Positions 392 to 17,463 of a stretch of DNA of 48,286 bases are shown here, piece after piece. Position 1 is the stretch's first letter. Every line of letters begins with the position of its first letter. Position numbers and translations under genes: made by a program. This DNA is from Reyranella sp. (GTDB taxonomy: Bacteria; Pseudomonadota; Alphaproteobacteria; Reyranellales; Reyranellaceae). Location of the stretch: the NCBI GenBank assembly GCA_021732285.1, contig JAKFVH010000223.1:1-48286 (forward strand), written 5' to 3'. Under the pieces are notes generated by a model, which was given only the letters and a program-made list of their open reading frames with translations, was not told the origin of the DNA and did no database searches.

Positions 392-406
392 GCTGCGGCA
401 GGCTTA

Positions 407-1567: not shown

Positions 1568-3431
1568 GCAGATGCCCCTCGGCGCGGAACGAGGGTGGTT
1601 CCTCTTCCTCCACGACGTGACGCTCGGCCTCGCGGGCGGCCTCCTGCTGGCGGCGCCACATGTCGGCATAGAGGCCGTTCCTGGCCAGCAACTCGCCATG
1701 GCGGCCGCGCTCGGCGACGCGGCCGCGGTCGAGCACGACGATCTCGTCGGCGTTGATGATGGTCGACAGCCGATGGGCGATCACGACCGTGGTGCGGCCG
1801 CGACTCACCTCTTCCAGCGAACGCTGGATCTCCTGCTCAGTGCGCGTGTCGAGCGCGCTGGTCGCCTCGTCGAACAGAAGGATGCTGGGGTTCTTCAGGA
1901 TGGTGCGGGCGATCGCCACGCGCTGCTTCTCGCCGCCCGACAATTTCAGGCCGCGCTCGCCCACGGTGGAGTCATAGCCCTGCGGCAGGGCCATGATGAA
2001 GTCGTGGATGCGCGCCAGACGCGCCGCCTGCTCGACCTCCTCGCGCGTGGCGTCGGGTCGGCCGTAGCAGATGTTGTAGTAGATCGTGTCGTTGAACAGC
2101 ACGGTGTCCTGCGGCACCACGCCGATCGCCGCCCGCAGGCTCGACTGCGTCACGTCGCGGATGTCCTGGCCGTCGATCCGCACGCCGCCTGTCGCCACGT
2201 CGTAAAAGCGGAACAGGATGCGCGAGACCGTCGACTTGCCGGCGCCGCTCGAGCCCACGATCGCCACCGTGTCGCCCGGCGCTACGCGGAAGGAGACATC
2301 GTGCAGGATCGGCCGTGCCTTCTCGTAGTGGAAGTCGACATGGTCGAACACGATCTCGCCGCCGGCCACCTTCAAGGCCGGCGCCCCGGGCTTGTCGGCG
2401 ATCTCGGTCCTGACGTCCATCAGGCCGAACATGCTCTCCATGTTCACCAGGGCATTACGGATCTCGCGATAGGCGAAGCCCAGCATGTTCAAGGGCATGT
2501 AGAGCTGGATCAGGAAAGCGTTGACCGCCACGAAGTCGCCCAAGGTCATGGTGCCGGCCTTGACGCCGTAGCCCGCCATGACCATGACCGCGACCAGGCC
2601 GCAGGAGATGATGGCGCCTTGCCCGACGTTGAGCAGCGACAGGGTGCGGCTGGAGCGGATGGCGGCCTGCTCGTAGCGGCGGCGACCGACGTCGAAGCGG
2701 CGCGCCTCGTGCTCCTCGTTGCCGAAGTACTTCACCGTCTCGTAGTTGAGCAGGCTGTCGATCGCCTTGGCGTTGGCATCGGTGTCGGCGTCGTTCATGC
2801 GGCGCACGAATTTTATGCGCCATTCCGACAGGGCGACCGAGAAGACGATGTAGCCGCCGACGGCCGCCAAGGTCACCGCCGAGAAGCGCCAGTCGTAGAG
2901 GCTCCACAGCACCACGCCGACCAGCAGGATCTCGAACAGGGTCGGCAGGATGTTGAAGGTGGTGAAGCGGATCAGGAACTCCATGCCGTTGGTGCCGCGC
3001 TCGATGACGCGGCTCAACCCGCCGGTCTGGCGTTCGAGGTGGAAGCGCAGCGACAGCGCATGGAGATGGTGGAAAACTTTTAGCGCGATGTTGCGGATGG
3101 CGCGCTGCGAGACCGGCGCGAAGATGGCGTCGCGCAGCTCGCCGAAGGCCTGGGCGAGGACGCGGGCCACGCCATAGGCCAGGATCAGGGCCACCGGCAC
3201 GGCCACGGCCTGGGCCGTGGGCTCGCCCAGGGCATCGACGGCGTACTTGTAGAGCACCGGGACGTAGACGTTGGTGACCTTGGCCACGATCAGCAACACC
3301 ATCGCCACCACGACACGGCAGCGCAGGCCGGTCTCGCCCTCCGGCCACAGATAGTGACCGACCACGCGCAAAACGGCCCCGGTGCGCCTCAAACCGAGCT
3401 TGGGAACGCCATGTTTGGCGGCTAGCGACAT
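1554..3431 (-). CDS. Atm1/HMT-type ABC exporter, fused permease and ATPase
   Basis: A 625-residue half-transporter: a six-helix type IV exporter membrane domain (about residues 25-330) followed by a nucleotide-binding domain. Walker A GSSGAGKST is near residue 390, the signature LSGGEKQR and the Walker B ILLFDEATSALD follow, and the H-loop IAHRLST is present. The membrane domain has ATM1-family features (PVLYKYAVDAL, RHxxxLSLRFHLERQTGGLSR-type segment, LLNYETVKYFGNE). Atm1-like proteins work as homodimers in the inner membrane and export glutathione-linked species or metal-thiol conjugates; which one applies here is unknown. It heads a minus-strand run with an MFS gene and meaB. The C-terminal tail after the ATPase is charged (EEEEPPSF). 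Confidence 0.88.
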   Translation of the reverse strand: MSLAAKHGVPKLGLRRTGAVLRVVGHYLWPEGETGLRCRVVVAMVLLIVAKVTNVYVPVLYKYAVDALGEPTAQAVAVPVALILAYGVARVLAQAFGELRDAIFAPVSQRAIRNIALKVFHHLHALSLRFHLERQTGGLSRVIERGTNGMEFLIRFTTFNILPTLFEILLVGVVLWSLYDWRFSAVTLAAVGGYIVFSVALSEWRIKFVRRMNDADTDANAKAIDSLLNYETVKYFGNEEHEARRFDVGRRRYEQAAIRSSRTLSLLNVGQGAIISCGLVAVMVMAGYGVKAGTMTLGDFVAVNAFLIQLYMPLNMLGFAYREIRNALVNMESMFGLMDVRTEIADKPGAPALKVAGGEIVFDHVDFHYEKARPILHDVSFRVAPGDTVAIVGSSGAGKSTVSRILFRFYDVATGGVRIDGQDIRDVTQSSLRAAIGVVPQDTVLFNDTIYYNICYGRPDATREEVEQAARLARIHDFIMALPQGYDSTVGERGLKLSGGEKQRVAIARTILKNPSILLFDEATSALDTRTEQEIQRSLEEVSRGRTTVVIAHRLSTIINADEIVVLDRGRVAERGRHGELLARNGLYADMWRRQQEAAREAERHVVEEEEPPSFRAEGHLRVAD

Positions 3432-3536
3432 GAGTGCAAAATGCCTTTCGGGCGCGCGGAGTTCAGTAGCGTGGGGGGCGACGGCCTTCTATCGTGGACA
3501 TACGGCCGAAGTAAGCCCCCGATGGGAAGGGATTTC

Positions 3537-4361
3537 ATGAGATTTCGTAGGGCCTTCATAGTCTTGGCCGCGTGTCTGACGCCGCCCGCCGTGGTTGCTG
3601 CCCAGGACGCCCGCCAGGTCGACATTGCGTATGAAATCACCTTCGCGGGCATTTCCGGCTTCCGCATCGACGTCACCGCCCGCTTCAACGGCTCGAACTA
3701 CGATGTCGAGACCAGCACCTTCAAGGAAGGCATGCTGAAGGCCGTCACCATGAACTACTTCGGCCGCAACCGCGCCTGGGGCGGCTTCACCACCCGGGGC
3801 GCGGAACCGACGGCGGGGTCGCTCTCGATCAGCGTCGACGGCAAGCCGCGCACCTGGCTCGCGCAATACGGCAACGCGGGCTTCCTGCAGGAGACCCACA
3901 ATCCCGTCTGGAAGCCGACGCCGCAGCAGACGATCAGCGACGCCGACCGCAAGGACTCGCTCGATCCCCTGTCGGCGGCGCTCAGCGTCGGCTTTGCCGG
4001 CGATGCTGCCTGCGACAAGACCGTGCGCAGCAACGACGGCAAGCGCCGCATCGATGTGCTGTTCAAAAAGATCGGCATGGAGCCCGCGGCCGCCACGGGC
4101 ATCCCAGGCGCGATCGGCGACGTGCTGGTCTGCGAGATCTACACCAAGCGCGTCGCCGGCGAGTTCGACGAGGCCCCCAAGGAAGCCGAGACCGAACGCG
4201 AGCGGCCGATCAAGATCTGGCTGGCGCGTTTCGACAACACGCAGATCCGTTATCCCGGCAAGCTCGAGGCGCAGACCCTGTTCGCCACCATCCGCGGCAA
4301 GGTCCTGTCGTTCCGCGAGCGGCCGCTGACGCCGGCCGAAGCCGAGGCCATCCGGCGCTGA
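3537..4361 (+). CDS. DUF3108 family periplasmic protein
   Basis: A 274-residue protein with a cleavable-looking signal peptide (MRFRRAFIVLAACLTPPAVVAA, with an AxA-like end near residue 22), followed by a beta-rich domain beginning VDIAYEITFAGISGFRIDV and ending with a basic tail. This pattern (early YEITFAGI-type strand, central YGRNRAWGGF-like segment, C-terminal LEAQTLFATIRGKVLSF) matches the DUF3108 family of periplasmic or outer-envelope proteins of unknown role. I chose ATG 3537 because GGGAAGGG stands at the right distance and the signal peptide starts there; an upstream in-frame ATG at 3441 gives no signal peptide. It diverges from the ABC exporter gene with about 105 nt between starts. 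Confidence 0.75.
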   Translation: MRFRRAFIVLAACLTPPAVVAAQDARQVDIAYEITFAGISGFRIDVTARFNGSNYDVETSTFKEGMLKAVTMNYFGRNRAWGGFTTRGAEPTAGSLSISVDGKPRTWLAQYGNAGFLQETHNPVWKPTPQQTISDADRKDSLDPLSAALSVGFAGDAACDKTVRSNDGKRRIDVLFKKIGMEPAAATGIPGAIGDVLVCEIYTKRVAGEFDEAPKEAETERERPIKIWLARFDNTQIRYPGKLEAQTLFATIRGKVLSFRERPLTPAEAEAIRR

Positions 4362-4460
4362 AAAGGCGACGCGATCCAATTCAGGCTCGCAGCGTAGTGC
4401 AGGGCCGTCGTCCAACCTCTTGCTCCATCAATCCAATCGGCCGGTGCCAGCAGTGCCGGC

Positions 4461-4481
4461 CTGTCGCGTGGATCGCGACAG
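4461..4481. terminator. Hairpin between convergent genes (possible terminator)
   Basis: CTGTCGCG at 4461-4468 pairs with CGCGACAG at 4474-4481 around a 5-nt loop. It lies in the 221-nt gap between the convergent DUF3108 gene (ends 4361) and the minus-strand gene ending at 4583. No T-tract follows on either strand, so termination is only an inference from position. A weaker A+T-rich inverted repeat (ATAACC 4524-4529 with GGTTAT 4542-4547) is nearby; I see no gene in the gap. Confidence 0.35.
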
Positions 4482-4582
4482 TGCGACACTCGCTCTTCTT
4501 CCGGACAAGGCACGCGACCCTAAATAACCTAAGTTATTATCGGTTATGATGGCCGTCTTGTCCAGGTCTTCCTTCCAGCGCC

Positions 4583-4960
4583 TCACAAGCTTCGAGCGCG
4601 TTCCAGCAGTCCGTCGTCGGTGGGCCGGTCCATGGCGGAGATGCCCGCGAGGTGTTGGCAGAGCTCGGCGATATGGCCGTCGCGGGTCTTGTACTTCTCG
4701 AGATAGTCGACGAGGTCCTGCCTGGTGCCGTCGGGGCCCGTCAGGTACCACCGGCGCGTGCCGCGGAGCGAGTCGATGACGCGATCGAAGAAGTCGAGGT
4801 CGGCGGCGGGTCGCCCCGCGCGCATCGATCCAGCCTTGTGGCTCACCTTGAGGCAGGGATTGTCGGCGCGGAGCTGGGTCTGGGCAACCTCGTCGGCGCC
4901 GAACCTGAAGACGCTGGCTTCGCGGGAATCCATCCACACGATCGCTCGACTGCGGAGCAT
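4583..4960 (-). CDS. Translational-machinery-like small protein (eRF1-domain-like family), FixK-box promoter
   Basis: A 125-residue soluble protein starting MLRSRAIVWMDSREASVFRF, with a conserved-looking middle HKAGSMRAGR, then LTGPDGTRQDLVDYLEKY and a final ISAMDRPTDDGLLERAR. This layout (AxVWxDxREAxxFxF, HKAG, GP...K/R..L, hPSDxxLLxxAR) resembles small alphaproteobacterial proteins annotated as translational machinery or host-attachment-like proteins, whose fold recalls eRF1 domains. The function is unproven. The ATG at 4960 was preferred to longer in-frame starts because the family begins with this segment and because the longer start would include the FNR box. A perfect FNR/FixK box is centred 65 nt upstream of this ATG, so low-oxygen induction is likely. 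Confidence 0.6.
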   Translation of the reverse strand: MLRSRAIVWMDSREASVFRFGADEVAQTQLRADNPCLKVSHKAGSMRAGRPAADLDFFDRVIDSLRGTRRWYLTGPDGTRQDLVDYLEKYKTRDGHIAELCQHLAGISAMDRPTDDGLLERARSL

Positions 4961-5018
4961 TGTAGGTCCGTGATGTGTTAGTGGCGCCGCATCGTCGCGT
5001 CGTGTCGGCCAGGTTACT

Positions 5019-5032
5019 TTGATCTGGATCAA
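5019..5032. promoter_or_regulatory. Perfect FNR/FixK-type box
   Basis: TTGATCTGGATCAA is an exact TTGAT-N4-ATCAA dyad, the binding site of FNR/Anr/FixK-family regulators. It lies 59-72 nt upstream of the ATG at 4960 on the minus strand, fitting a class II activator site for that gene. A FixK-type regulator with matching recognition residues is encoded at 9869-10543. Confidence 0.8.
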
Positions 5033-5038
5033 ATGGGG

Positions 5039-5293
5039 CTACGCGACGACCAGCAGCAGCCGGCGGACCTCGCGGCCTGCAGCGCTGGGCAGATCCTCGG
5101 CCGGCCGCGGACGCGGCAGCGGCGCACCGGTCAGGACCAGGTTGCGCAGGCACTCGCGCACCTCGCGGAACAGCCGGTCGACGACTTCCTTCTCGGTGCA
5201 GCCGTCGGCCCTCACGTTGGCGAGATCGGGAACCCAGCCACGGAAGTATCCGTCATCGGACCGTTCGATGGTCGAATAGTAGCAGGCGTACAT
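5039..5293 (-). CDS. HicB-like small protein, no HicA partner visible
   Basis: An 84-residue protein starting MYACYYSTIERSDDGYFRGW and continuing VPDLANVRADGCTEKEVVDR, the RNase H-like HicB fold signature (xYxAxxEx..dGYxxxxPDLpgxxxxGxTxeEA). The C-terminal part is basic and proline-rich (GAPLPRPRPAEDLPSAAGREVR), without a clear ribbon-helix-helix or HTH DNA-binding domain. No HicA-sized toxin gene (about 60 residues with a catalytic histidine) is adjacent on either strand, so this is an orphan rather than a toxin-antitoxin pair. I chose ATG 5293; GTG 5296 is equally possible. GAGGAGAGGG lies upstream. A near-perfect FNR box at 5314-5327 is 21 nt upstream, close for activation but suitable for repression or for the divergent gene. 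Confidence 0.65.
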   Translation of the reverse strand: MYACYYSTIERSDDGYFRGWVPDLANVRADGCTEKEVVDRLFREVRECLRNLVLTGAPLPRPRPAEDLPSAAGREVRRLLLVVA

Positions 5294-5313
5294 CACACCC
5301 TCTCCTCGTCCGT

Positions 5314-5327
5314 TTGACCCAGATCAA
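5314..5327. promoter_or_regulatory. FNR/FixK-type box between divergent small genes
   Basis: TTGACCCAGATCAA (reverse TTGATCTGGGTCAA) matches the TTGAT-N4-ATCAA dyad except for one base in one half. It lies between the HicB-like gene (start 5293, minus) and the 42-residue membrane protein (start 5379, plus); its centre is about 58 nt upstream of the plus-strand ATG, a good distance for activation. Confidence 0.7.
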
Positions 5328-5378
5328 TCGCCGCCTTGCCGGGTTGCGCCACCCTGGCGTGAGCCAACGGAGACGACG

Positions 5379-5507
5379 ATGACGATCAACCAGTTCTATT
5401 TCGTCCTTTTTGTGCTTGCCTCTTTCACGGGCTTCGGGCTTTTCATGGCCGTCAGCTACGTGCGCTACCGCCGCTGGCTGGCGAAGCATCCCGCCCCGCC
5501 TCTCTGA
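5379..5507 (+). CDS. 42-residue single-pass membrane protein
   Basis: This short gene encodes MTINQFYFVLFVLASFTGFG followed by LFMAVSYVRYRRWLAKHPAPPL. It has one hydrophobic helix (about residues 6-28) and a basic C-terminal tail, giving an expected N-out or periplasmic start and cytoplasmic end. CGGAGACGACG supplies a ribosome binding site directly before the ATG, and an FNR/FixK-type box is centred about 58 nt upstream. The pattern resembles small subunits or assembly factors that accompany membrane complexes made at low oxygen, but I recognise no specific family and infer nothing firmer. Codon use (third-position G/C) is consistent with a real gene. Confidence 0.55.
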   Translation: MTINQFYFVLFVLASFTGFGLFMAVSYVRYRRWLAKHPAPPL

Positions 5508-5695
5508 TCATTCCTGTCGCGACGGCCGGTCCGCCTGCTCGATCTCGTCGTAGGCGGTCTTGATCATCCACCAGCAGAACATCGTGGCGTAGAGCGCCAG
5601 CGCCAGCAGGCCGACCACTCGCAGCCGTGCGAGGGGCTGCCTTCGGGAAAGTCGGCCGTGCGGGCGAGCTCGAGACGGATGCGCTTCAGGGTCAT
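5508..5695 (-). pseudogene. Broken small gene: N-terminal fragment joined out of frame to a membrane-anchor tail
   Basis: The ATG at 5695, behind a good GGAG site, reads MTLKRIRLELARTADFPEGS then PSHG, the start of an alphaproteobacterial protein family I recall as about 130 residues long that continues YEFVAPLD... Here the family sequence stops after about 24 residues; the frame runs on to a stop at 5564 through unrelated sequence. In another frame the same DNA reads RLRVVGLLALALYATMFCWW then MIKTAYDEIEQADRPSRQE, a good membrane helix and tail ending at 5508, with a possible GTG start at 5618. The simplest reading is a deletion or frameshift joining two gene pieces; an overlapping pair of small genes is the alternative. 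It is 22 nt downstream of the CBS-BON gene. Confidence 0.45.
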
Positions 5696-5717
5696 GGTTG
5701 CTCCTTTGGTCGATTTG

Positions 5718-6410
5718 TCAGCTGGGAGGGAAAACGTCGACCGGCAGCACGACGATCTTGTTCGTGACCCGCTTCACGCCGGCGACATTCTCAACGGCAA
5801 CCCGAACGGCTTCCTTGGCCGGCTCCGAAGAAGCGTGACCCCACAGGTGGACGACGCCGTTCTCGACCACGACGTTGCTGACGCCGGAACCCCAGGAGTG
5901 CCTGTCCAGTTCGCCGCATACCCGGGTGCGCACGTCCTCGTCCTGCGCCGCGCCTTCGGTGGGCCGCAGTTCGCGAGCGAGCAGGCCCTGCAGGAGGTTG
6001 GCCCGGCTGACGATGCCCACCACCTTGCCATCGCGCAGGACGGGTAAGCGCTTGATGTTGTGGCGCTGCATGAGGTTCGCAATCTCCTTGAGTTCGGTGC
6101 GCTCCTCGGCCGCCACGACGTGGCGGGTCATGACGTCGGCCACGTGATGGGAATGCGACCGCATGTAGTCGCGCGCCAGCACGGATTCGTCGGCCAGCAG
6201 CCGCTGCAGCCAGGAGCGGCCGGGCACGGTGCCGGTCTCAGGCCGGCTCATCAGGTCGGCCTCGCTGACGATGCCGATCATGCGGCCGTCGGCATCGACC
6301 ACCGGCGCCGCGCTGATGCGCGCCCCGAGGAGGATGTCGGCCGCCGCCCAGACCGTGGCGTCGGCCGGGACCGTCACGACCGGACGTGTCATCACCTTCA
6401 TGGCATACAT
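5718..6410 (-). CDS. CBS-CBS-BON domain protein (copy 1)
   Basis: A 230-residue protein with two CBS domains (about 1-60 and 85-145; PVVDADGRMIGIVSEADLM and LPVLRDGKVVGIVSRANLL) and a C-terminal BON domain (about 155-225; VVENGVVHLWGHASSEPAKE then VAGVKRVTNKIVVL). CBS pairs bind adenine nucleotides and act as energy sensors; BON domains are linked to membrane or phospholipid contact. It is a paralogue of 10914-11609, with the same domain order and length. The ATG at 6410 is chosen for the GGAGCGG just upstream; MKVM at 6401 is an alternative. An FNR/FixK-like half-dyad lies about 60-75 nt upstream. Proteins of this kind are often made in low-oxygen stress responses; the target here is unknown. 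Confidence 0.85.
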   Translation of the reverse strand: MYAMKVMTRPVVTVPADATVWAAADILLGARISAAPVVDADGRMIGIVSEADLMSRPETGTVPGRSWLQRLLADESVLARDYMRSHSHHVADVMTRHVVAAEERTELKEIANLMQRHNIKRLPVLRDGKVVGIVSRANLLQGLLARELRPTEGAAQDEDVRTRVCGELDRHSWGSGVSNVVVENGVVHLWGHASSEPAKEAVRVAVENVAGVKRVTNKIVVLPVDVFPPS

Positions 6411-6470
6411 GATCCGCTCCTGCGCGAATGAGGCCGGCCCATTCATCGCACAGGGGTGGCCTGGGGTGCC

Positions 6471-6484
6471 TTGCGCCAGATCAA
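6471..6484. promoter_or_regulatory. FixK-type box in the divergent CBS-BON / fixL promoter region
   Basis: TTGCGCCAGATCAA (reverse TTGATCTGGCGCAA) keeps one perfect half site and a degenerate second half. It is centred 67 nt upstream of the CBS-BON start at 6410 and about 78 nt upstream of the fixL start at 6555, so it could serve either gene. The same TTGCG-N4-ATCAA variant recurs at 8714-8727, which supports it being functional. Confidence 0.6.
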
Positions 6485-6554
6485 TCGCCCGAGACCAGAC
6501 GCCGCCCCCGACCGAGACAGCGAGTCGCGCGATGGTTTCGAGCGGCGTGCTATC

Positions 6555-8096
6555 ATGGCAGCTGGTCCACCGATGAACGAGATTGCAGCCACACATCTGA
6601 TCGGCGCATCGCAGGATGCGGAGCTTGCCTTCGCCCCCGATCTCACGATCATCGCCTGCACCGAGGCCTACGGCCGGCTCCAAGGCGTTTCCTGCGATGC
6701 CCTGGTCGGCCGGCATGTTCGGCAGGCCTTCCAGGAGGACGGTGCGCGCGAGCAGCTGATCGCTTCCCTCGAACGCGTCTGCCGTGCGCGCAGACCTGAC
6801 CGCATGGCAGGTCGGGCACCTCTTGCTGTCGGCGGCGGCGAGACCGCGCCGTCTGGCACCATGATCAACATGCCGGTGCTGGACGCCGATAGCGGCGTGA
6901 AGTGGATCCTGCACAGCCTCGATGCCCGGCCGGACGACGGTCGCGACCGCCCGGCGATGGCGCTGGCGCTGGAGGCCGCCGAGGCGCGCTTGCGTTCGAT
7001 CCTGCAGACGGTGCCGGACGCCATGATCATCATCGACGATCGCGGCCGCATCGAATCGCTCAGCACCACGGCCGAGCGGCTGTTCGGCTACTCCATGAGC
7101 GAAATCGCAGGCAAGAACATCAGCGTGCTCATGCCCTCGCCCGACCGCGAACAGCACGACGTCTACCTGAAGCGGTATCTGGCCACGGGCGAACGGCGCA
7201 TCATCGGCATCGGCCGCATCGTGGTGGGCCAGCGCAAGGACGGCACGACCTTTCCCATGCATCTCACCGTGGGCGAGCTGCGCTCGGCCGAACGGCACTA
7301 TTTCACCGGCTTCATCCGCGACCTGACCGATCAGCAGCTCACCGAGACCCGGCTGAAGGAGCTGCAATCGGAAGTGACGCACATGTCGCGCTTTACGGCG
7401 CTGGGCGAGATGGCCTCGACGCTGGCGCACGAGATCAACCAGCCGCTGACCGCCATCAGCAACTACCTGCGCGGCAGCCAGCGCCTGCTCGACCGCATCG
7501 ACAGCGAGCAGACGCCCCTGCTGCGCGACGCGCTGGGCAAGGCCGCGGACCAGGCGCTGCGTGCCGGCCATATCATCCGCCGACTGCGCGAGTTCGTGTC
7601 CCGCGGCGAAAGCGACCGGCGGATCGAGAACCTCGCCAAGCTGATCGAGGATGCCAGCACGCTCGCCCTGGTCGGCGCGCGGGAGGCCGGCATCACCGCG
7701 TCGTTCCGGCTCGACCCCAAGGCCGATCTGGTGCTGGCCGATCGCATCCAGATCCAGCAGGTGCTGGTCAACCTGATCCGCAACGCCATGGAGAGCATGA
7801 TCGAGACCGCCAAAGAGCGCAGGCTGGAGATCGCCAGCGCCGCCGGCGCCGGCGATGTCGTGGAGGTCAGCGTCGCCGATACCGGACCGGGGCTCGCGCC
7901 GGAGGTCGCCAGCCATCTGTTCCAGCCCTTCGTCACCACCAAGCGCAAGGGCATGGGGCTGGGGCTTTCGATCTGCCGCACCATCGTCGAGGCGCACGGC
8001 GGCAAGATCTGGGTCGAGGACCGGCCGGGTGGCGGTACGATCTTCCGGTTCACATTGCGCGCCGCTGAGGTAGAGGAGATCGAGCATGGCGGCTGA
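6555..8096 (+). CDS. fixL: FixL oxygen-sensing heme-PAS histidine kinase
   Basis: A 513-residue kinase: an N-terminal divergent PAS-like region (about 10-120), a heme PAS domain (about 145-260), then HisKA and HATPase_c domains. The heme pocket is recognisable: PDREQHDVY holds the proximal heme histidine (H201, matching H200 of Bradyrhizobium FixL), the following KRY arginine matches R206, and IIGIGR holds the distal arginine (R221, matching R220). The residue matching H214 is arginine. The phosphoacceptor is H292 in TLAHEINQPL; N box VNLIRNAMES and G boxes DTGPGL and GMGLGLS follow. No transmembrane segment is seen, so it should be soluble. The start is uncertain (ATG 6555 or 6573; neither has a strong site). 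It overlaps fixJ by 11 nt. In the known pathway, oxygen loss from heme switches on autophosphorylation and transfer to FixJ. Confidence 0.93.
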   Translation: MAAGPPMNEIAATHLIGASQDAELAFAPDLTIIACTEAYGRLQGVSCDALVGRHVRQAFQEDGAREQLIASLERVCRARRPDRMAGRAPLAVGGGETAPSGTMINMPVLDADSGVKWILHSLDARPDDGRDRPAMALALEAAEARLRSILQTVPDAMIIIDDRGRIESLSTTAERLFGYSMSEIAGKNISVLMPSPDREQHDVYLKRYLATGERRIIGIGRIVVGQRKDGTTFPMHLTVGELRSAERHYFTGFIRDLTDQQLTETRLKELQSEVTHMSRFTALGEMASTLAHEINQPLTAISNYLRGSQRLLDRIDSEQTPLLRDALGKAADQALRAGHIIRRLREFVSRGESDRRIENLAKLIEDASTLALVGAREAGITASFRLDPKADLVLADRIQIQQVLVNLIRNAMESMIETAKERRLEIASAAGAGDVVEVSVADTGPGLAPEVASHLFQPFVTTKRKGMGLGLSICRTIVEAHGGKIWVEDRPGGGTIFRFTLRAAEVEEIEHGG

Positions 8097-8700
8097 CGGA
8101 GTGGTTCATGTCATCGACGACGACGCCGACGTGCGTCAGTCGCTGGCCTTCCTGCTCAGCACCGCAGGCTTTGCCGTGCGCGTCCACGATTCGGCAGTCG
8201 CCTTCCTGAAGGTCCTGCCCGAGGTCAAGAATGGCTGCGTCGTCACCGACGTCCGCATGCCGGGGATCGACGGGCTGGAGCTGCAGCGCCGTCTCGGCGA
8301 GCTCGAGCTGCGCCTGCCCGTGATCGTCATGACGGGCCACGGCGACGTGCCGCTTGCCGTCGAGGCCATGAAAGCGGGCGCCGTCGATTTCATCGAGAAG
8401 CCGTTCGATGACGAGGTCATGCTGTCGGCCATCAGGGCCGCACTCGGCCGTCAGGCCGACGACCGGGAACGCAACGCGCGGACGGCGGCGATCCACGAGC
8501 GCATCGCCCGGCTATCCGACCGCGAGCGCGACGTGCTGGAACGGCTGGTGGCCGGCAAGGCCAACAAGGTGATCGCCTATGAGCTCGGCATCAGCCCCCG
8601 GACCGTCGAGGTCTATCGCGCCAACGTCATGACCAAGATGCAGGCCGACAGCCTGTCGGAGCTCGTCCGCATGGCCCTGATCGAGAGCAGCGCATCGTAA
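8086..8700 (+). CDS. fixJ: FixJ response regulator
   Basis: A 204-residue regulator with an N-terminal receiver domain (acidic DDD at 11-13, phosphoacceptor D55 in VVTDVRMPG, T/S in VMTGHGD, lysine in IEKPFDD) and a C-terminal LuxR/NarL-type helix-turn-helix (LSDRERDVLERLVAGKANK then ISPRTVEVYRANVMTKMQA). Length, domain order and the linker match FixJ/TtrR-family proteins. It is co-transcribed and translationally coupled with fixL (the ATG at 8086 precedes the fixL stop). In known systems phosphorylated FixJ dimerises and activates fixK; a candidate site lies at 9775-9795 before fixK here. The gene next downstream carries its own FixK-type box. Confidence 0.93.
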   Translation: MAADGVVHVIDDDADVRQSLAFLLSTAGFAVRVHDSAVAFLKVLPEVKNGCVVTDVRMPGIDGLELQRRLGELELRLPVIVMTGHGDVPLAVEAMKAGAVDFIEKPFDDEVMLSAIRAALGRQADDRERNARTAAIHERIARLSDRERDVLERLVAGKANKVIAYELGISPRTVEVYRANVMTKMQADSLSELVRMALIESSAS

Positions 8701-8713
8701 AGCCGTTGGCGGT

Positions 8714-8727
8714 TTGCGCTGGATCAA
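8714..8727. promoter_or_regulatory. FixK-type box upstream of receiver-protein operon
   Basis: TTGCGCTGGATCAA has the ATCAA half site and a degenerate TTGCG half, the same form as at 6471-6484. It lies between the fixJ stop (8700) and the ATG at 8762, centred 41 nt upstream of that ATG, which leaves a short leader if it acts as a class II activator site. Confidence 0.6.
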
Positions 8728-8761
8728 AGCGAACCCTGGTCCTGGTGAGGATGCTTGCCGG

Positions 8762-9139
8762 ATGTCGCCAGTGCCGGAAACCGTCCTTGTCGTCGATGAC
8801 GACGCCGCCGTCCGGGCGGCCCTGAAGTTCGCCCTGGAAGTTGAGGGCTTCCACGTCCAGCTCTATGATCGCCCGCAAGCGTTGCTGGCCGACCACAACC
8901 TGCCCGAGCGGGCCTGCCTGGTCATTGACTATCGCATGCCCGAGATCGACGGCATCGAGCTGGTCGACCAGCTGCGCAGCCGTAATGTCTCGCTTCCGGC
9001 CATCCTGATCAGTGGCCGCGTCAACAAGCATCTGAGAAGCCTGGCGCAGCGTTCGGGCGTGACGCTGGTGCTGGAAAAGCCTCTGTCGGATACCGCTCTG
9101 GTGGAAAGCATCCGTGGAGCGCTGGCCGCAGCTGCCTGA
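8762..9139 (+). CDS. Single-domain receiver protein (FixJ-receiver-like, no output domain)
   Basis: A 125-residue stand-alone receiver domain: DDD near residues 12-14, the phosphoacceptor aspartate in LVIDYRMPEIDG, a serine in ILISGRV, and the conserved lysine in VLEKPLS. It has no DNA-binding or enzymatic domain. Receiver-only proteins near FixLJ can act as phosphate sinks, as FixT-like antagonists, or as a second output; sequence alone does not decide. The start at ATG 8762 follows a GTGAGG about 12 nt upstream; an in-frame TTG at 8714 coincides with the FixK box and is unlikely. It is first in a run with the DUF883 and holin-like genes (gap 10 nt, then a 4-nt overlap). Confidence 0.85.
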   Translation: MSPVPETVLVVDDDAAVRAALKFALEVEGFHVQLYDRPQALLADHNLPERACLVIDYRMPEIDGIELVDQLRSRNVSLPAILISGRVNKHLRSLAQRSGVTLVLEKPLSDTALVESIRGALAAAA

Positions 9140-9149
9140 GGAGACGACC

Positions 9150-9479
9150 ATGAGCAAGGGCGTGAAAGACACATTCGGTTATCTCGGCACCGAACAGGTG
9201 GCGTTGCGCGAGCAGCTCGACCAACTCTCGATGACCCTGCAGGAGCTTGCGAAGGCGGAAGGCGCCGAGGCAATCAAGGCGGCAAGCGATGCCGCGCGCC
9301 GCGTCGCCGACCGCGCCGGCGAGATCGCCGACGAGCTCGCCGGCAAGGCCGACGCCGTCACGGCCGCGGCAGCCAAGGGCCGCGTCCAGGTCGAAGACGC
9401 CATTCGCGAGCAGCCTCTGATAGCGGTGTCGCTGGCGGCGGCGGCCGGCTTCCTGCTGGCCCTGCTGGTGCGGCGATGA
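9150..9479 (+). CDS. DUF883/ElaB-YqjD-type membrane-anchored protein
   Basis: A 109-residue protein: a long amphipathic, alanine-rich helix (about 20-80) and a C-terminal hydrophobic anchor after the family signature REQPLIAVSLAAAAGFLLAL, ending VRR. This layout is that of the ElaB/YqjD/DUF883 family, whose studied members bind ribosomes at the inner membrane in stationary phase. The ribosome binding site GAGGAG overlaps the stop of the preceding receiver gene. The last 4 nt overlap the next gene (ATGA), so the pair are probably translated together. Together with the translational-machinery-like protein at 4583-4960 it hints at ribosome hibernation under low oxygen, an inference. Confidence 0.75.
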   Translation: MSKGVKDTFGYLGTEQVALREQLDQLSMTLQELAKAEGAEAIKAASDAARRVADRAGEIADELAGKADAVTAAAAKGRVQVEDAIREQPLIAVSLAAAAGFLLALLVRR

Positions 9480-9766
9480 GCCCGCCGTCGCAGGACGGAT
9501 CGTCCCTGCTGACGACGCTGGTGAAGTCGCTGGCGGCCATCGGAGCCCTGTCCGTCGGCGCGGCCGCGCGGCGGGCGGCCTCGACTGCCGGCGGCTATGT
9601 CATTGTCGCCCTCCTGTTCACCGTCAGCCTGTGCTTCCTCACCTTTGCCGGCTATCGCGCCCTCGAGCAGGCGATGGGCGGCATCCAGGCCTCGCTGATC
9701 GTGGGTTGCGCCTATCTTTTCCTGGCCCTGGTCGCAGCCCTCGTGCTGCAAATCCGGCGGCGCTGA
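9476..9766 (+). CDS. Holin-superfamily-like two-helix membrane protein
   Basis: A 96-residue protein with two strong transmembrane helices (about 40-62, GGYVIVALLFTVSLCFLTFA, and 70-92, ASLIVGCAYLFLALVAALVL) and a basic C-terminus QIRRR. The arrangement resembles the phage-holin-3-6-like (PF07332) membrane proteins that often follow DUF883 genes in proteobacteria; they are not known to be lytic in that setting. It overlaps the DUF883 gene by ATGA and ends the receiver operon; the candidate FixJ site for fixK begins 9 nt after its stop. Confidence 0.65.
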   Translation: MSPPSQDGSSLLTTLVKSLAAIGALSVGAAARRAASTAGGYVIVALLFTVSLCFLTFAGYRALEQAMGGIQASLIVGCAYLFLALVAALVLQIRRR

Positions 9767-9774
9767 GCGGCGAC

Positions 9775-9795
9775 CTACGTAGAATTCCTTAGTTC
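9775..9795 (+). promoter_or_regulatory. Candidate FixJ-binding site upstream of fixK
   Basis: TACGTAGAATTCCTTAG at 9776-9792 resembles the rhizobial FixJ target as I remember it (AGTA, a short A/T run with TTCC, then TTAG). It lies 75-95 nt upstream of the fixK ATG and contains the 8-bp palindrome CTACGTAG. The FixK-type dyad is absent here, so fixK would be under FixJ rather than autoregulation. Confidence 0.35.
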
Positions 9796-9868
9796 AATAC
9801 CTGAATGGCTGGTCAGCCGCAGGAGGGCTACTCAACGCACATCGAGAGCCCTTCAGCCGGAGACAGCC

Positions 9869-10543
9869 ATGCAGGTCCAGACCGCCGCCCAAGCCAGCAA
9901 GTTTCCGGCAGCTGCTTTCGGCCGGCGGCCTCCCGCGACGGCGCGAATGCCGGCCGGCATGCAGATCGTGCTGGCCAAAGGCGAGGAGCTGTTCGCCGAA
10001 GGCGATGAAGCCGAGTTCTTCTATCAGGTCGTGTCGGGCGCCATCCGCTCGTACAAGCTGCTGAGCGACGGCCGCCGCCAGATCGACGCCTTCCATCTGC
10101 GCGGCGACATCTTCGGCCTGGAGGCCGGCAGCAACCATCGCTTCTCCGCCGAGGCGGTCGGCGCCGCCACCGTGATCGCCTATCGCCGCAGCCGGCTCAG
10201 TGCGTTGATCGAGGACGATACCGCGTTTCGCGACCGCATCATGACGGCGACGCTGCGCAGCCTGGAGCGCGCCCAGGACCACATGCTGCTGCTCGGCCGC
10301 AAGACGGCGCAGGAGAAGATGGCGACCTTCCTGCTCGACATGGCCGAACGCCTGTCCAAGGACGATGAGCATTTCGAGTTGCCGATGCAGCGCTCCGACA
10401 TCGCCGACCACCTCGGCCTCACCATCGAGACGGTGTCGCGCACGCTGACCCAGTTCGCGCGCAGCGGCCTGATCCGCCTGCTGCCGGCCGGCCGGTCGAT
10501 CGGTCTCTGCAACAAAATGGCCCTGCGCGGCCTTAACGCCTAG
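9869..10543 (+). CDS. fixK: FixK-type Crp/Fnr transcription regulator
   Basis: A 224-residue Crp/Fnr protein: cyclic-nucleotide-binding-like beta roll (about 30-120), dimer helix (about 120-155), and winged HTH (about 165-215). The recognition helix TIETVSRTL carries E187, S190 and R191, the E-x-x-S-R set that reads TTGAT half sites, matching the boxes found around this locus. There is no N-terminal cysteine cluster, so it is a FixK-like rather than an oxygen-labile FNR-like protein. The site corresponding to redox-sensitive Cys183 of Bradyrhizobium FixK2 appears to be serine (S190). GGAGACAGCC precedes the ATG. It heads a run with a phasin and the second CBS-BON gene (gaps about 25 nt). Confidence 0.9.
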   Translation: MQVQTAAQASKFPAAAFGRRPPATARMPAGMQIVLAKGEELFAEGDEAEFFYQVVSGAIRSYKLLSDGRRQIDAFHLRGDIFGLEAGSNHRFSAEAVGAATVIAYRRSRLSALIEDDTAFRDRIMTATLRSLERAQDHMLLLGRKTAQEKMATFLLDMAERLSKDDEHFELPMQRSDIADHLGLTIETVSRTLTQFARSGLIRLLPAGRSIGLCNKMALRGLNA

Positions 10544-10568
10544 CGAGGTTCACTCTCCGGAGGACGCG

Positions 10569-10889
10569 ATGAGCACCACGCCAGATCCCGTCACCATGAC
10601 GATGATGTCGGCCAGCGACGCCCTGCAGACCTGCACCGAGGCCTGCGCCGAATGGCAGCGCGAGATCGCGCGTTTCGCCGATCTCCGGCTGGACGCGAAC
10701 CGCCGCAGCTGGGAAGCGCTGATGACGGCACGCGACATCCCCGGCGTCATCAAAGGGCAGCAGGAATGGGGCCTGCAAGCCGCGACGGATTACACGCAGG
10801 AGGCCGTCAGGCTCACGCGCCTGCTGACCGCCCTTTCGTTGACGGGCACGACGCCGGCCGTCCAGGACGCCGCCAGGCTCGTTGCCTGA
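10569..10889 (+). CDS. Phasin-family-like small protein
   Basis: A 106-residue, mostly helical protein with the phasin-like core CAEWQREIARFADLRLDANR followed by ARDIPGVIKGQQEWGLQAATDYTQEAVRLT. Phasins coat PHB granules and control their size and number. CGGAGGACGCG is a strong ribosome binding site. Its place directly behind fixK (25 nt) and before a CBS-BON protein suggests that storage-granule state is tied to oxygen supply in this organism, which also carries PHB-turnover genes at 29.1-33.4 kb. The assignment rests on pattern similarity; a non-granule member of the family is possible. Confidence 0.7.
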   Translation: MSTTPDPVTMTMMSASDALQTCTEACAEWQREIARFADLRLDANRRSWEALMTARDIPGVIKGQQEWGLQAATDYTQEAVRLTRLLTALSLTGTTPAVQDAARLVA

Positions 10890-10913
10890 CGGCACCGTTG
10901 AAGGGAGCACGCC

Positions 10914-11609
10914 ATGCGCGCAAAGGATGTCATGATTGACGACGTCATCTGCATCAACGTCAAGGAGTCGGTGTTCGACGCTGCCGAGCTGCTGCTCGGC
11001 GCGGGCGTGAGCGCCGCCCCGGTCGTCGACAGCACGGGCGCCGTCGTCGGCATCGTCAGCGAGGCCGATCTCATCCGCCGGGCCGAGATCGAGACGACAG
11101 CCAAGAAGAGCTGGCTGGCGCGCCTGTTGGATAGCGAGGCCTCGGCAGCCCACGACTTCGTTGCGGCAAACACCCGACGGGTGTCCGATGTCATGACCGA
11201 GGAAGTCGTGACGGCGAGCGAAGATGCCACGCTTGGCGAGTTGGTCGGGCTGATGGAGCAGCACGGCATCAAGCGCATCCCGATCGTTCGCGGCCGCATT
11301 CCAGTGGGGGTCGTAAGCCGCTCGAATCTCCTGCGTGCGCTCCTGTCGCGCGAGCCGGACCGTCCGGTGCTGCAGCCGACCGACAAGGCGTTGCGCAAGG
11401 CCGTCGTCGAGGCGCTGGAGCACCGGCCCTGGACGTCGAAATGGCCGACCAACGTCTTCGCCAATGACGGCGTCGTCCATCTCTGGGGCTTCGTCGACGG
11501 CGAGGAGGTGCGCAAGGCCTACCGCGTCGCCGCCGAGAACGTGCCCGGCGTCCGTCGGGTGAAGAGCCACCTGCGCGCGCTGCCGCCGTCGGTCGGCATG
11601 GGCGTCTGA
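10914..11609 (+). CDS. CBS-CBS-BON domain protein (copy 2)
   Basis: A 231-residue protein with two CBS domains (DVMIDDVICINVKESVFDAA, APVVDSTGAVVGIVSEADLI; then DVMTEEVVTASEDATLGELV and VGVVSRSNLLRALL) and a C-terminal BON domain (VFANDGVVHLWGFVDGEEVR, then VPGVRRVKSHL). It is collinear with the protein at 5718-6410, including the KSWLARLLD/RSWLQRLLA linker between the CBS domains, so the two are paralogues. It is third in the fixK run, 24 nt after the phasin gene and behind AAGGGAGC. CBS pairs are likely to sense adenylate charge; the BON domain may hold the protein at a membrane or in an assembly. Confidence 0.87.
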   Translation: MRAKDVMIDDVICINVKESVFDAAELLLGAGVSAAPVVDSTGAVVGIVSEADLIRRAEIETTAKKSWLARLLDSEASAAHDFVAANTRRVSDVMTEEVVTASEDATLGELVGLMEQHGIKRIPIVRGRIPVGVVSRSNLLRALLSREPDRPVLQPTDKALRKAVVEALEHRPWTSKWPTNVFANDGVVHLWGFVDGEEVRKAYRVAAENVPGVRRVKSHLRALPPSVGMGV

Positions 11610-11625
11610 CACACGGCTTCAAGAT

Positions 11626-11648
11626 CCCGCGGCAGAAACAGCCGCGGG
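11626..11648. terminator. Hairpin between convergent genes (probable terminator)
   Basis: CCCGCGGC at 11626-11633 pairs perfectly with GCCGCGGG at 11641-11648 around the 7-nt loop AGAAACA. It stands between the stop of the CBS-BON gene (11609) and the stop of the convergent dioxygenase gene (11657), so it could end transcripts from both sides. There is no T-tract. Confidence 0.55.
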
Positions 11649-11656
11649 TGGCCCGA

Positions 11657-12520
11657 TCATCCCCTGCCCGCCATCAGCGCCGCCTGGTCCTCCGGCGCAT
11701 AAAAGAAGTCGCCGGGGCGGAAATCATGGCCGAGGTCGCCCAGCAGGCGGCGCTGGCGCGGCGTGCAGCGCTCGAACAGCGCGGCGTAGGGCGTGCCGAA
11801 ATCGTACGGCCGCATGAACATCTGGCAGTAGTTGTAGAGGATGGTCTTGCGCGCCTTGCCCGAGCGGTTGGGTGACGGCCCGTGCCAGATCGCGTGCGGG
11901 AAGACGTAGGCGTCGCCGGCCTTGCCGAGCAGCGGCACCGCGCCCGGCATGTGCGGGTTGGGGATGCGCTCGGCACGCTCCGGGAACGGCCGCAGGTGGC
12001 TGCCGGGAAAGATCGTGAAGTTGCCGCTGTCGGGCTCGGTGACGTCGGTCAGCAGGTACATCACCTTGACCGCCAGCGGCCGGCTGGTCTCGGTGACGCG
12101 GATGGCGCGCTGGGCCTCGCCGCCGTCGGTGTGGGTGTAGCCGGGGAACGTCTCGGTCGAGGCGCGCACGATCGCCTGGCTCATCGAGAACTGGATGTAG
12201 GGACCCATCAGGTCGAGGATCAGGTCGAACACGCGCGGCCGGTCGATCAGGTCGATGAACGCCTGGTGGTAGGTCAGCAGGTCGCGGCGATCCATGAAGG
12301 CTTCCGGGTTCGGATCGGCATGATCGACCCAGGCATAGTGGCCGCGCGGCAGCTTGCCCGGCGCCGGCTCGTAGCCCGGCTGCGTCCGCACGCGGTCGAT
12401 CTGCTGGGAGAAGAAATCCACTTCCGCCGGGGTGAGCGCGCCCTCGAGCTGCAGGTAGCCGTCGACCGCCCACTGCTCGCGCTGCTCTTCGGTCAAAGCC
12501 CGTGTGGTGTTGGCCAGCAT
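11657..12520 (-). CDS. Phytanoyl-CoA dioxygenase family Fe(II)/2-oxoglutarate oxygenase
   Basis: A 287-residue PhyH-superfamily protein. The metal triad is visible: H130 and D132 in GYTHTDGGEAQR and H213 in PHAIWHGPSPN; R224 in GKARKTI is placed to bind 2-oxoglutarate. Family members hydroxylate small acyl or natural-product substrates in the cytoplasm; the substrate here is unknown. AAGGAGG lies directly before the ATG at 12520, so that start is firm, and longer upstream extensions run into the deaminase gene. It is the last gene of a minus-strand series beginning with ABC permeases, but a 136-nt gap separates it from the deaminase and I see nothing specific in that gap. Confidence 0.85.
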   Translation of the reverse strand: MLANTTRALTEEQREQWAVDGYLQLEGALTPAEVDFFSQQIDRVRTQPGYEPAPGKLPRGHYAWVDHADPNPEAFMDRRDLLTYHQAFIDLIDRPRVFDLILDLMGPYIQFSMSQAIVRASTETFPGYTHTDGGEAQRAIRVTETSRPLAVKVMYLLTDVTEPDSGNFTIFPGSHLRPFPERAERIPNPHMPGAVPLLGKAGDAYVFPHAIWHGPSPNRSGKARKTILYNYCQMFMRPYDFGTPYAALFERCTPRQRRLLGDLGHDFRPGDFFYAPEDQAALMAGRG

Positions 12521-12656
12521 GCTGTCCTCCTTGCTGGCCGTATTTAACCGCTGCAGCTCACCCAGCGTCCAGCGCGCGGTCCCGCCCTGCGGTCGTGGAC
12601 GAGCGACGCTACTCTCAGCGCGACACCCATCGCGGTCCTTCCAACCCCTTGAGCAG

Positions 12657-13694
12657 TCAGGCGACTCCATGTTCTTCGCGCAGGGCAGCGAAGCTGGCAT
12701 GAAACTCTGCTGCAAACTGCGCTTTCGCTGCACTGGTCATACAAGAGGCCTCGATCGCGTTTAGCGTCAACGATGCGATCGCATCGACGCCAAGTCCATG
12801 ACTCTGCGACACCTTTCTAAATTCGTCAGTGAGAGTTGTATTGAACATCGTCGGGTCGTCGGAATTAACAGTAAGCAAGAGGCCTGCTTGCAACAAAGCG
12901 CCGATCGGATGTTGCTCAAAGGATGGCACGCCCGCCAAACAGACGTTGCTAGTAGGACAGAGTTCCAAGGGCACCCGCCGATCCCTGAGTTCCGCGACCA
13001 GAAATGGATCTTCCAGGCAGCGAATGCCATGGCCAATACGATACGCCCCGAGGGCTCGCAGGGCGCCCCAGATACTAGCGGGCCCAACTGTTTCGCCGGC
13101 ATGCGGCACGCTTGGAAGGCCAGCCGCTCGTGCCCGTTCGAACGCCAATCGGAAACGTTCGGGTGGATTGTTGGTTTCATTGCCGCCGAGACCAAATGCG
13201 ACGACGCCGTCTGCCGCTCCAGAGATAGCCCAGTTCGCCACGGTTATTCCTTCGTCCCCCGTGATGTTTCTTGGGATGTCGATGACGATGCCCGATTCGA
13301 TTCCATGCTCCTGTCGTGCCCACGTTCGAGCACGATTGAGCGCAGCGAGCTGGGCCTGAAATTCAAGGTTGGCGTGTTTGACGTGGACCCAGGCGGTATG
13401 AGTGAATTCGGTATAGCGTATGTTCTGCGCGGCTTGGCCTGCGAGGAAGTCGCGTGCAACTTCTTCGATATCTTCCTGGTCTTGGATGCAGTGCGACGCT
13501 GCGACGTAGATTTCGATGAAGTGCGCGAAGTCTCTGAAGCGGAACCAGTCACGCATCCCTTCGACAGTCGACACGGGGAGCGGTACAGCGTTCTTCCGGG
13601 CGAGGGCCAATAGCCGCTGTGGCGTTATCGCTCCGATCAAGTGCACGTGCAGCTCGACTTTCGGCATCGAGCGAATGAACCCTTCGAGCGACAC
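12657..13694 (-). CDS. Adenosine deaminase-family hydrolase
   Basis: A 345-residue amidohydrolase of the adenosine/adenine deaminase group. Zinc-site and catalytic residues are all present: H16 and H18 in ELHVHLIG, H198 and E201 in PHAGET, H222 in GHGIR, and D279-D280 in VNSDDPTMF. It should remove the 6-amino group of adenosine, adenine or a related purine; substrate choice within the family is not clear, and the motif is HVHLIGA instead of the usual HLHLDGS. GTG 13694 is preceded by GGAAGGG at a good distance. Base composition is visibly lower in G+C than its neighbours, suggesting transfer. It follows a 53-residue membrane protein and an ABC importer set on the same strand, which suggests nucleoside uptake and use. 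Confidence 0.85.
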   Translation of the reverse strand: MSLEGFIRSMPKVELHVHLIGAITPQRLLALARKNAVPLPVSTVEGMRDWFRFRDFAHFIEIYVAASHCIQDQEDIEEVARDFLAGQAAQNIRYTEFTHTAWVHVKHANLEFQAQLAALNRARTWARQEHGIESGIVIDIPRNITGDEGITVANWAISGAADGVVAFGLGGNETNNPPERFRLAFERARAAGLPSVPHAGETVGPASIWGALRALGAYRIGHGIRCLEDPFLVAELRDRRVPLELCPTSNVCLAGVPSFEQHPIGALLQAGLLLTVNSDDPTMFNTTLTDEFRKVSQSHGLGVDAIASLTLNAIEASCMTSAAKAQFAAEFHASFAALREEHGVA

Positions 13695-13718
13695 TGAGGT
13701 GCCCTTCCAGATACTCGA

Positions 13719-13880
13719 CTAGTAGTGCGTCCTGTCGAGGCGTCGACGTGCCTCCTCGACCCTACGCTCAATCGCTTCGTCTTCCGGTTTCGGCGGACGT
13801 ATCAGTTTCGTCAGCCACACAACGGCAGGCACGCCCAGCACCATGGCGAAGACCGCGATGATGACTAATGCCGTATACAT
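13719..13880 (-). CDS. 53-residue single-pass membrane protein
   Basis: The sequence MYTALVIIAVFAMVLGVPAV then VWLTKLIRPPKPEDEAIERR encodes one transmembrane helix (about 4-25), a proline-rich turn, and a charged helix ending RRLDRTHY. It lies 40 nt after the binding-protein gene stop and 24 nt before the deaminase start, on the same strand, so it sits inside the apparent importer-deaminase operon. The layout resembles small accessory proteins found next to transporters, but no function can be assigned. No strong Shine-Dalgarno sequence is visible, so the start is less certain. Confidence 0.5.
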   Translation of the reverse strand: MYTALVIIAVFAMVLGVPAVVWLTKLIRPPKPEDEAIERRVEEARRRLDRTHY

Positions 13881-13920
13881 CGGTATCTGTCGTGCGGCGT
13901 ACCCCGTCCGCGCGCGGTTG

Positions 13921-15300: not shown

Positions 15301-15338
15301 CTTGTTTTCCTCCCCCCAACGCCCAATGGACGCCGCGT

Positions 15339-17460: not shown

Positions 17461-17463
17461 CGC

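Follow-up and report, generated by a model that had tools for sequence, protein, structure and literature searches.

What does an oxygen-sensing FixLJ–FixK circuit control when no terminal oxidase genes lie beside it? The question is raised by a 48,286-base stretch of DNA (hereafter the window) from an organism whose named relatives are Reyranella, in which fixL, fixJ and a fixK-type gene stand among four predicted FixK boxes (Table 1). Judged by its sequence, this is a real and conserved low-oxygen control island, mostly of known type. It shows a FixLJ–FixK circuit in a genus that is not one of the rhizobia studied for it, with stress-type genes and not oxidases as the nearest predicted targets.

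Table 1 Features of the fix island, in window coordinates
Feature	Position	Strand	Basis
TMP ('translational machinery protein'), one-domain Pelota-fold, 125 aa	4583..4960	-	pLDDT 91, PDB matches, family profile
FixK box of TMP	5019..5032		predicted; centre ~65 nt from TMP start; conserved in L064
HicB-like orphan gene	5039..5296	-	weak Pfam matches; homolog names; unlikely target
FixK box of p42	5314..5327		predicted; centre 55-58 nt from p42 in 4/4 loci
p42, 42-residue membrane protein	5379..5507	+	no Pfam family over cut-off
CBS-BON protein 1	5718..6410	-	Pfam CBS and BON over cut-off
FixK box of CBS-BON 1	6471..6484		predicted; assigned by comparison of relatives
fixL, haem PAS histidine kinase	6555..8096	+	PAS His201 and Arg221
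fixJ	8086..8700	+	NF006900 321 bits, cut-off 255; 5xso E 1e-67
FixK box of receiver operon	8714..8727		predicted; box before receiver in 25/28 loci
Single-domain receiver	8762..9139	+	over Pfam cut-off; homologs share start in relatives
DUF883-like protein	9150..9479	+	DUF883_C 26.9 bits, below cut-off of 27
Holin-superfamily-like membrane protein	9476..9766	+	Phage_holin_3_6 E 1.4e-4, below cut-off
Putative FixJ-type site before fixK	9774..9792	+	likeness to published motifs; conservation
fixK	9869..10543	+	B. japonicum FixK2 4i2o E 1.4e-50
Phasin-like protein	10569..10889	+	Phasin_2 E 0.007, below cut-off
CBS-BON protein 2	10914..11609	+	CBS-type matches; resembles CBS-BON 1; kept downstream of fixK in several relatives

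The fixLJ–receiver–fixK cassette

The identities given to fixL, fixJ and the fixK-type gene in a preliminary description of this DNA are borne out. FixJ exceeds its NCBIfam cut-off, and FixL and FixK are clear best matches that score below theirs (566 against 850 for FixL, and 216 against the 300 of the Caulobacter FixK model). The haem histidine and the arginine of the FixL PAS domain are conserved, as aligning it to the B. japonicum FixL chains of the PDB shows, the arginine being the residue changed in entry 1y28, and the nearest PDB neighbours of FixJ and FixK are B. japonicum FixJ and FixK2, respectively. FixK contains a single cysteine, residue 214, and therefore no Fe–S cysteine cluster. 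The putative FixJ-type site before fixK, CCTACGTAGAATTCCTTAG, resembles published FixJ-site motifs (available passages of PMC4999443) and is seen in 14 of 17 stretches; it is cut off in two and falls outside the stretch in one.

The receiver encoded after fixJ resembles Caulobacter FixT as a single receiver domain near fixLJ that is predicted to be under control of the circuit. It differs in scoring 42.3 bits against the FixT model cut-off of 150 and in having one cysteine instead of the four of the FixT motif (available part of PMC7078487). The order fixJ–receiver–fixK2 occurs in Bradyrhizobium diazoefficiens, with bll2758 as the receiver (passages of PMC9104804). By gene content and order, the circuit is a fixLJ–receiver–fixK cassette of known type.

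The likeness to B. diazoefficiens extends to FixK2-type boxes and to the genes associated with them. According to passages of PMC9104804, a TMP gene (bll4412) and CBS, Usp, hemN and holin-type genes have boxes associated with them and show lower expression when fixK2 is deleted. The list for Bradyrhizobium FixK2 already includes TMP, CBS and holin-type genes. A point against the reading favoured below is that two Bradyrhizobium genes, bll2758 for the receiver and blr2762 for a CBS protein, are microoxia-induced but not marked as direct FixK2 targets in the table of PMC6515984. The window copy differs in having no adjoining cbb3 or hemN genes and in being flanked by p42, DUF883-like and CBS-BON genes. 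At the level of gene sequence, this comparison covers FixJ, FixK2 and FixL from the PDB.

The gene identities and the presence, conservation and assignment of the boxes lead us to favour, at a probability of about 0.8, a conserved low-oxygen cascade of Reyranella whose binding, activation and oxygen response would follow known FixLJ–FixK systems. As oxygen falls, deoxy-FixL would phosphorylate FixJ, FixJ at 9774–9792 would turn on fixK, and FixK would in turn activate four nearby units: TMP, p42, CBS-BON 1 and the receiver–DUF883–holin operon. The output would be a low-oxygen stress and survival set like the Bradyrhizobium FixK2 list, not respiration alone.

Terminal oxidase genes and a second fix island

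The reported lack of a terminal oxidase holds within this stretch, where cbb3 and hemN genes do not adjoin the fix island. It does not extend to relatives, in which ccoN belongs to the corresponding island and is preceded by a box in all 15 loci that have the gene. The same assembly also contains a second fix island (C130–C69) with hemN, which overlaps a narK contig. These two findings give no support to the proposal that the lack of an oxidase sets this circuit apart. Within the window's own genome, of which the assembly is 81% complete, no ccoN or FixO match was found. A suspected inserted element at the end of C130 is not claimed, as that piece of DNA is present a single time in the assembly.

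The window island (C24) might be a decaying second copy that has shed cbb3 and hemN, with C130–C69 and its hemN and nar genes as the working circuit. The C130 FixK and FixL are 87% and 83% identical to those of the window, and usp and hemN are kept on C130 and missing from the window copy, as such a history would predict. We nevertheless consider it unlikely. The genes of this copy are all intact, as is its FixJ-type site, and none of the four boxes is missing from the URHD0017 ortholog (L064). In the FixL tree the window groups with L064 (0.96) and C130 falls outside; the window copy has therefore outlived a species split.

Two relatives' islands are among the closest known systems. The URHD0017 island shares CBS-BON 1, fixLJ, receiver, fixK and the phasin-like gene with the window and differs in having usp and hemN, with no cco within its 20.7 kb. 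The R. soli type island (L068) shares the same genes, together with boxes, and additionally has ccoNO, usp, hemN and a canonical TMP.

Boxes and the genes they precede

All four boxes previously noted are present at the positions in Table 1. Their description as TTGAT-N4-ATCAA sites is exact for 5019 and less so for the others, with one mismatch in 5314 and two each in 6471 and 8714. All four match the published FixK2 box, TTGA/C-N6-T/GCAA (passages of PMC9104804). Expressed as TTGM-N6-KCAA, this pattern occurs four times in the 48,286 bases, with no site besides the island boxes, and all four lie in the intergenic gaps of the island (eight gaps listed, 732 bp in total).

Gene-order comparison with related genomes, suggested in the preliminary description, finds boxes upstream of the same genes. 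The receiver box is kept in 25 of 28 loci, in agreement with the proposal that the receiver–DUF883–holin operon is a target; elsewhere, a separate box precedes the DUF883-like gene in 12 of 15 loci, but not in the window. TMP, likewise named among the box-carrying genes, has a box in 16 of 18 loci, although that of L113 is an unlike site, and CBS-BON 1 has one in 12 of 19. Boxes are thus missing from three receiver, two TMP and seven CBS-BON 1 loci. The phasin-like gene has no box of its own in the window, and a site precedes it in 6 of 16 loci, one of them unlike.

Two boxes required a choice between neighbouring genes. Box 6471 lies between CBS-BON 1 and fixL and tracks the former: it is present in all eight loci in which CBS-BON 1 adjoins fixL, whereas none of the 16 fixL loci without CBS-BON 1 has a like site. 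We accordingly rejected fixL as its target and retained the CBS-BON gene, as first proposed. Box 5314 lies between p42 and the HicB-like gene, each of which had been listed as a box carrier. Its spacing from p42 is steady across all four loci (Table 1), which upholds the 42-residue gene. The distance from the box centre to the HicB-like start is 24 nt in the window and 49 nt in L064, and in two loci (L078 and L121) p42 and its box occur with no HicB-like match; the HicB-like gene is therefore an unlikely target. The HicB-like call is itself weak (UPF0150, E 0.03; HicB_lk, E 0.16 in the ortholog; both below cut-off), although JGI names homologs 'predicted RNase H-like HicB family nuclease'. HicA proteins are about 60 aa, too large for a separate one to fit into the flanking gaps of 78 and 82 nt, and a HicAB toxin–antitoxin pair at 5039–5296 is unlikely.

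Another Crp/Fnr protein of the genome, perhaps of FnrN or DNR type, could use the same boxes in place of the island FixK. Additional Crp/Fnr genes lie on C36, C132 and C130, and FixK and FnrN sites are described as hard to distinguish (passages of PMC4999443). Boxes 6471 and 8714 take the TTGC variant that the FixK2 consensus allows, and all four boxes lie beside fixK, which makes this reading improbable. Chance matching has almost nothing left to recommend it: although the loose pattern yields a mean of 1.9 sites per window in 200 dinucleotide shuffles (largest 8), so that a count of four alone is not striking, every box lies in a gap, the tighter pattern TTGMNNYRGRTCAA, derived from boxes of the same genome, is seen four times against a shuffle mean of 0.085 (largest 1), and the conservation of the boxes in relatives refutes it.

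The TMP family and its box

The predicted structure of TMP (pLDDT 91) matches the middle domain of Pelota first and Balon next among PDB entries, and the family profile gives a weak but significant match to archaeal Pelota (E 2.1e-5). The four members scanned with the Pfam eRF1_2 and baeRF models remained below cut-off (best 17.7 bits against 27.1). The structural and profile matches support a fold shared by TMP with Pelota; the case for Balon, a hibernation factor, is weaker. TMP thus resembles the middle domain of Balon, Pelota and aeRF1, but comprises one domain of 125 aa, whereas Balon has three (available text of PMC10901736). Unlike aeRF1 release factors, the family has no GGQ motif in any of the 21 rows of alignment A1 or the 33 of A2, and the window copy does not have the C-terminal tail seen in the family alignment. 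We know of no ribosome binding by TMP.

Across Alphaproteobacteria, a FixK/FNR box precedes 27 of 40 TMP genes, compared with 25 of 365 control genes. The 40 are what remains of 47 rows after removal of duplicates (L130 = L156, L133 = L159) and of the distant TMP-like L181–L185, which score under 100 and have no box; with these kept in, the ratio is 27/45. The recurrence of this box before a Pelota-fold protein suggests a concrete and testable way in which Alphaproteobacteria may couple oxygen sensing to ribosome control.

The earlier proposal of a dormancy or translation-slowing response to oxygen loss is partly supported, by the oxygen-sensing type of the circuit, the conserved boxes and the fold of TMP. 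More tentatively, and at well below even odds, the TMP family may be a pared-down, one-domain member of the Pelota/Balon superfamily that makes ribosomes hibernate or rescues them, under FixK/FNR control in much of the class Alphaproteobacteria. The immediate outputs of the Reyranella island would then include TMP and a CBS-BON protein that may sense adenylates, and oxygen loss would be tied directly to ribosome parking. The TMP box parallels the hypoxia-induced Balon homologs of mycobacteria, whose DosR regulon, in the sources as excerpted, includes a low-oxygen-induced Usp; the lxa locus of Burkholderia cenocepacia is likewise described with low-oxygen-induced Usp and BON proteins. Both are cited as analogies. 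The 3.3-kb locus of the sole HPF-family gene found in the genome contains no FixK2-type box. In the literature, largely papers outside subscription, none of the matches listed for FixK2 and the Pelota/Balon factors was seen to link FixK to TMP, the passages on ribosome hibernation and FixK draw no link between the two, and the name Reyranella is absent among the matches listed.

Outside Reyranella, a survey of 108 of 109 proteins encoded near TMP, one of 897 aa being left out, revealed no low-oxygen neighbourhood that is conserved. Usp, CBS and Hsp20 are absent among the 25 commonest of its 114 Pfam families, and three of the 108 neighbours are Crp/Fnr-type proteins. One named locus does have such a neighbourhood: on a Bradyrhizobium septentrionale plasmid, a TMP homolog follows a universal stress gene and lies near CBS and alcohol dehydrogenase genes.

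The FixLJ–FixK circuit and its boxes

The FixLJ–FixK circuit encoded in the window is of known type; its local arrangement is unusual. FixL has a haem PAS domain, with a His and an Arg that align with Bradyrhizobium japonicum FixL. FixJ scores above its family cut-off; for FixL and FixK, the correct models are the best matches, with scores under those models' cut-offs. The closest PDB entry to FixK, which contains one cysteine, is B. japonicum FixK2 (4i2o, E 1.4e-50). The putative FixJ site 5' of fixK resembles both FixJ motifs quoted in PMC4999443 (GTAMGTAG and TAAGTAATTTCCCTTA) and recurs with few changes in 14 of 17 stretches, being cut off in two and lying beyond the stretch in one. Because FixK's nearest named relatives are Rhodospirillales bacterium URHD0017, Reyranella MAGs and Reyranella soli, the source organism is, judged from this protein, Reyranella or close kin.

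The four FNR/FixK boxes reported in the preliminary description are all present, each in an intergenic gap of the island. One matches the Fnr palindrome perfectly, another differs from it at a single position and the remaining two differ at two positions each; all four fit the published FixK2 box TTGA/C-N6-T/GCAA (PMC9104804), and no fifth FixK2-type site occurs anywhere in the window. Their number alone is unremarkable by a loose pattern (four, versus a mean of 1.9 and a maximum of 8 in shuffles); what is remarkable is their placement together with the tight motif (four, versus 0.085 expected). Across the whole assembly, TTGMNNNNNRTCAA gave 110 matches, each strand counted separately, versus 62 for the reversed control, clustering on the window's contig and on contigs C69 and C130.

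Coordinates of features, and loci with a site upstream of each gene (window included; a locus is counted if the gene is present with at least 150 nt upstream)
Feature	Coordinates	Window box	Loci with site	Remark
TMP (translational machinery protein)	4583..4960 (-)	5019-5032	16/18	L113: unlike site at 26 nt
p42 (42-residue membrane protein)	5379..5507 (+)	5314-5327	4/4	site at 55-58 nt
CBS-BON 1	5718..6410 (-)	6471-6484	12/19	
fixL	6555..8096 (+)			
fixJ	8086..8700 (+)			
Receiver		8714-8727	25/28	
DUF883 gene		none	12/15	
FixJ-type site CCTACGTAGAATTCCTTAG	9774-9792			5' of fixK; likeness to published FixJ motifs, conservation
fixK	9869..10543 (+)			
Phasin-like gene	10569..10889 (+)	none	6/16	
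usp			22/24	
ccoN			15/15	
p42–cytochrome-c-like pairs	L078 10714-11237; L121 7211-7746			
Second fix island	L030 (C130) 2-18226, with L028 (C69)			
Third FixL-like kinase and receiver	L028 (C69) 10100-11557			
Polyphosphate kinase 2-like gene	L031 (C36) 7341-8203			
TMP paralog	L032 (C91) 4745-5208			
Plasmid TMP-like gene cluster	L191 (NZ_CP088289.1) 1541-6378			

Probable target genes of the boxes

We compared the window with 37 other stretches (L030, L064–L079 and L105–L124). All eight loci in which CBS-BON 1 and fixL are adjacent have a box between them; among the 16 fixL loci that lack this neighbour, a site within 500 nt is absent from 15, and the remaining one, L115, has an unlike site. 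We therefore assign the box at 6471 to CBS-BON 1. The window's DUF883 and holin genes lie closely downstream of the receiver gene and probably share its box.

A box-to-start spacing of ~60 nt is common to TMP, usp and ccoN and fits activation from about -41.5 plus a short leader. The receiver box is centred 41–42 nt from the ATG in the window, L030, L064, L066–L068, L071 and L073, and 71–83 nt in other loci; if FixK acts from -41.5, receiver mRNAs with the shorter spacing would start at or near the start codon and be leaderless. In two stretches, p42, preceded by its box, lies directly 5' of a same-strand cytochrome-c-like gene; its product may be a small cytochrome partner.

Oxidase genes and a second fix island

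The same fixLJ–receiver–fixK block in R. soli and its close relatives has ccoNO, usp and hemN upstream (ccoN identified by TIGR00780, the others named by eye from translations); this half of the island is absent from the window. The window's assembly (6.36 Mb, 313 contigs, estimated completeness 81.5%) yielded no match to ccoN or FixO and two to COX1, on C8 and C119. A second fix island lies on its contig C130, with FixK and FixL 87% and 83% identical to the window copies, six tight-motif sites, and hemN, usp, NnrS-like and ADH-like genes (named by eye). FixL phylogeny groups the window copy with URHD0017 (0.96) and leaves the C130 copy outside the pair; placement of both islands in one cell is based on binning. 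C130 terminates 144 nt past the box corresponding to the ccoN-facing box of R. soli, and the start of R. soli CcoN is not encoded on this contig. Its low end and the start of C69 have 127 exact bases in common, within a narK-like gene, which places narGHJI-like genes (named by eye) beside the second island. The circuit thus probably has respiratory targets elsewhere in the genome.

C69 also carries a third FixL-like kinase (57% identity) opposite a receiver gene, with box TTGATATGAATCAA between them, and, at its far end, a hydrogenase-small-subunit-like gene (by eye) with a box 168 nt upstream. On C36, a polyphosphate kinase 2-like gene (by eye) has box TTGATATTGATCAA centred 58 nt upstream, and another Crp/Fnr gene lies nearby.

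The TMP box across Alphaproteobacteria

In two overlapping draws of alphaproteobacterial genomes, the TMP family occurs in 33 of 387 and in 33 of 389. When TTGM-N6-KCAA was sought within 200 nt upstream, with other genes of the same stretches as controls, 27 of 40 canonical TMP genes had a site versus 25 of 365 controls (Fisher P 2.5e-18, relatedness ignored), centred 58–74 nt from the start in 25 of the 27. Control matches do not inflate this contrast, since several resemble other FixK/FNR targets. With Reyranella left out, the counts are 19/32 versus 12/251, and at least one box-bearing TMP gene occurs in 13 of 20 non-Reyranella genera (hand count). For two of the 13 canonical genes without a site, a one-mismatch version lies at 62 nt. 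The window's assembly also encodes a canonical full-length paralog, preceded by a FixK box whose centre lies 61 nt upstream. Bradyrhizobium bll4412, matched to TMP by name, has a putative box and is 20.7-fold down without fixK2 (PMC9104804). Across the class, this recurring FixK/FNR box upstream of a gene for a Pelota-fold protein deserves a second look.

The observation in the preliminary description is sound. Its proposal that the circuit's output slows translation is plausible in view of proposals for one-domain baeRF-1 proteins (PMC6514570), the hypoxia-induced Balon homologs (PMC10901736) and the CBS modules that archaeal hibernation factors contain (PMC13324472). Against it, TMP has no further domains, and the HPF gene of this genome has no FixK2-type site in its 3.3-kb locus. 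Several target types of the window circuit are already on record in Bradyrhizobium; further sources used are PMC4999443, PMC6515984, PMC2908626, PMC6127331, PMC7078487 and PMC12542648. On a conjugative plasmid of Bradyrhizobium septentrionale, CBS, alcohol dehydrogenase, AAA ATPase, universal stress and TMP-like genes lie together.
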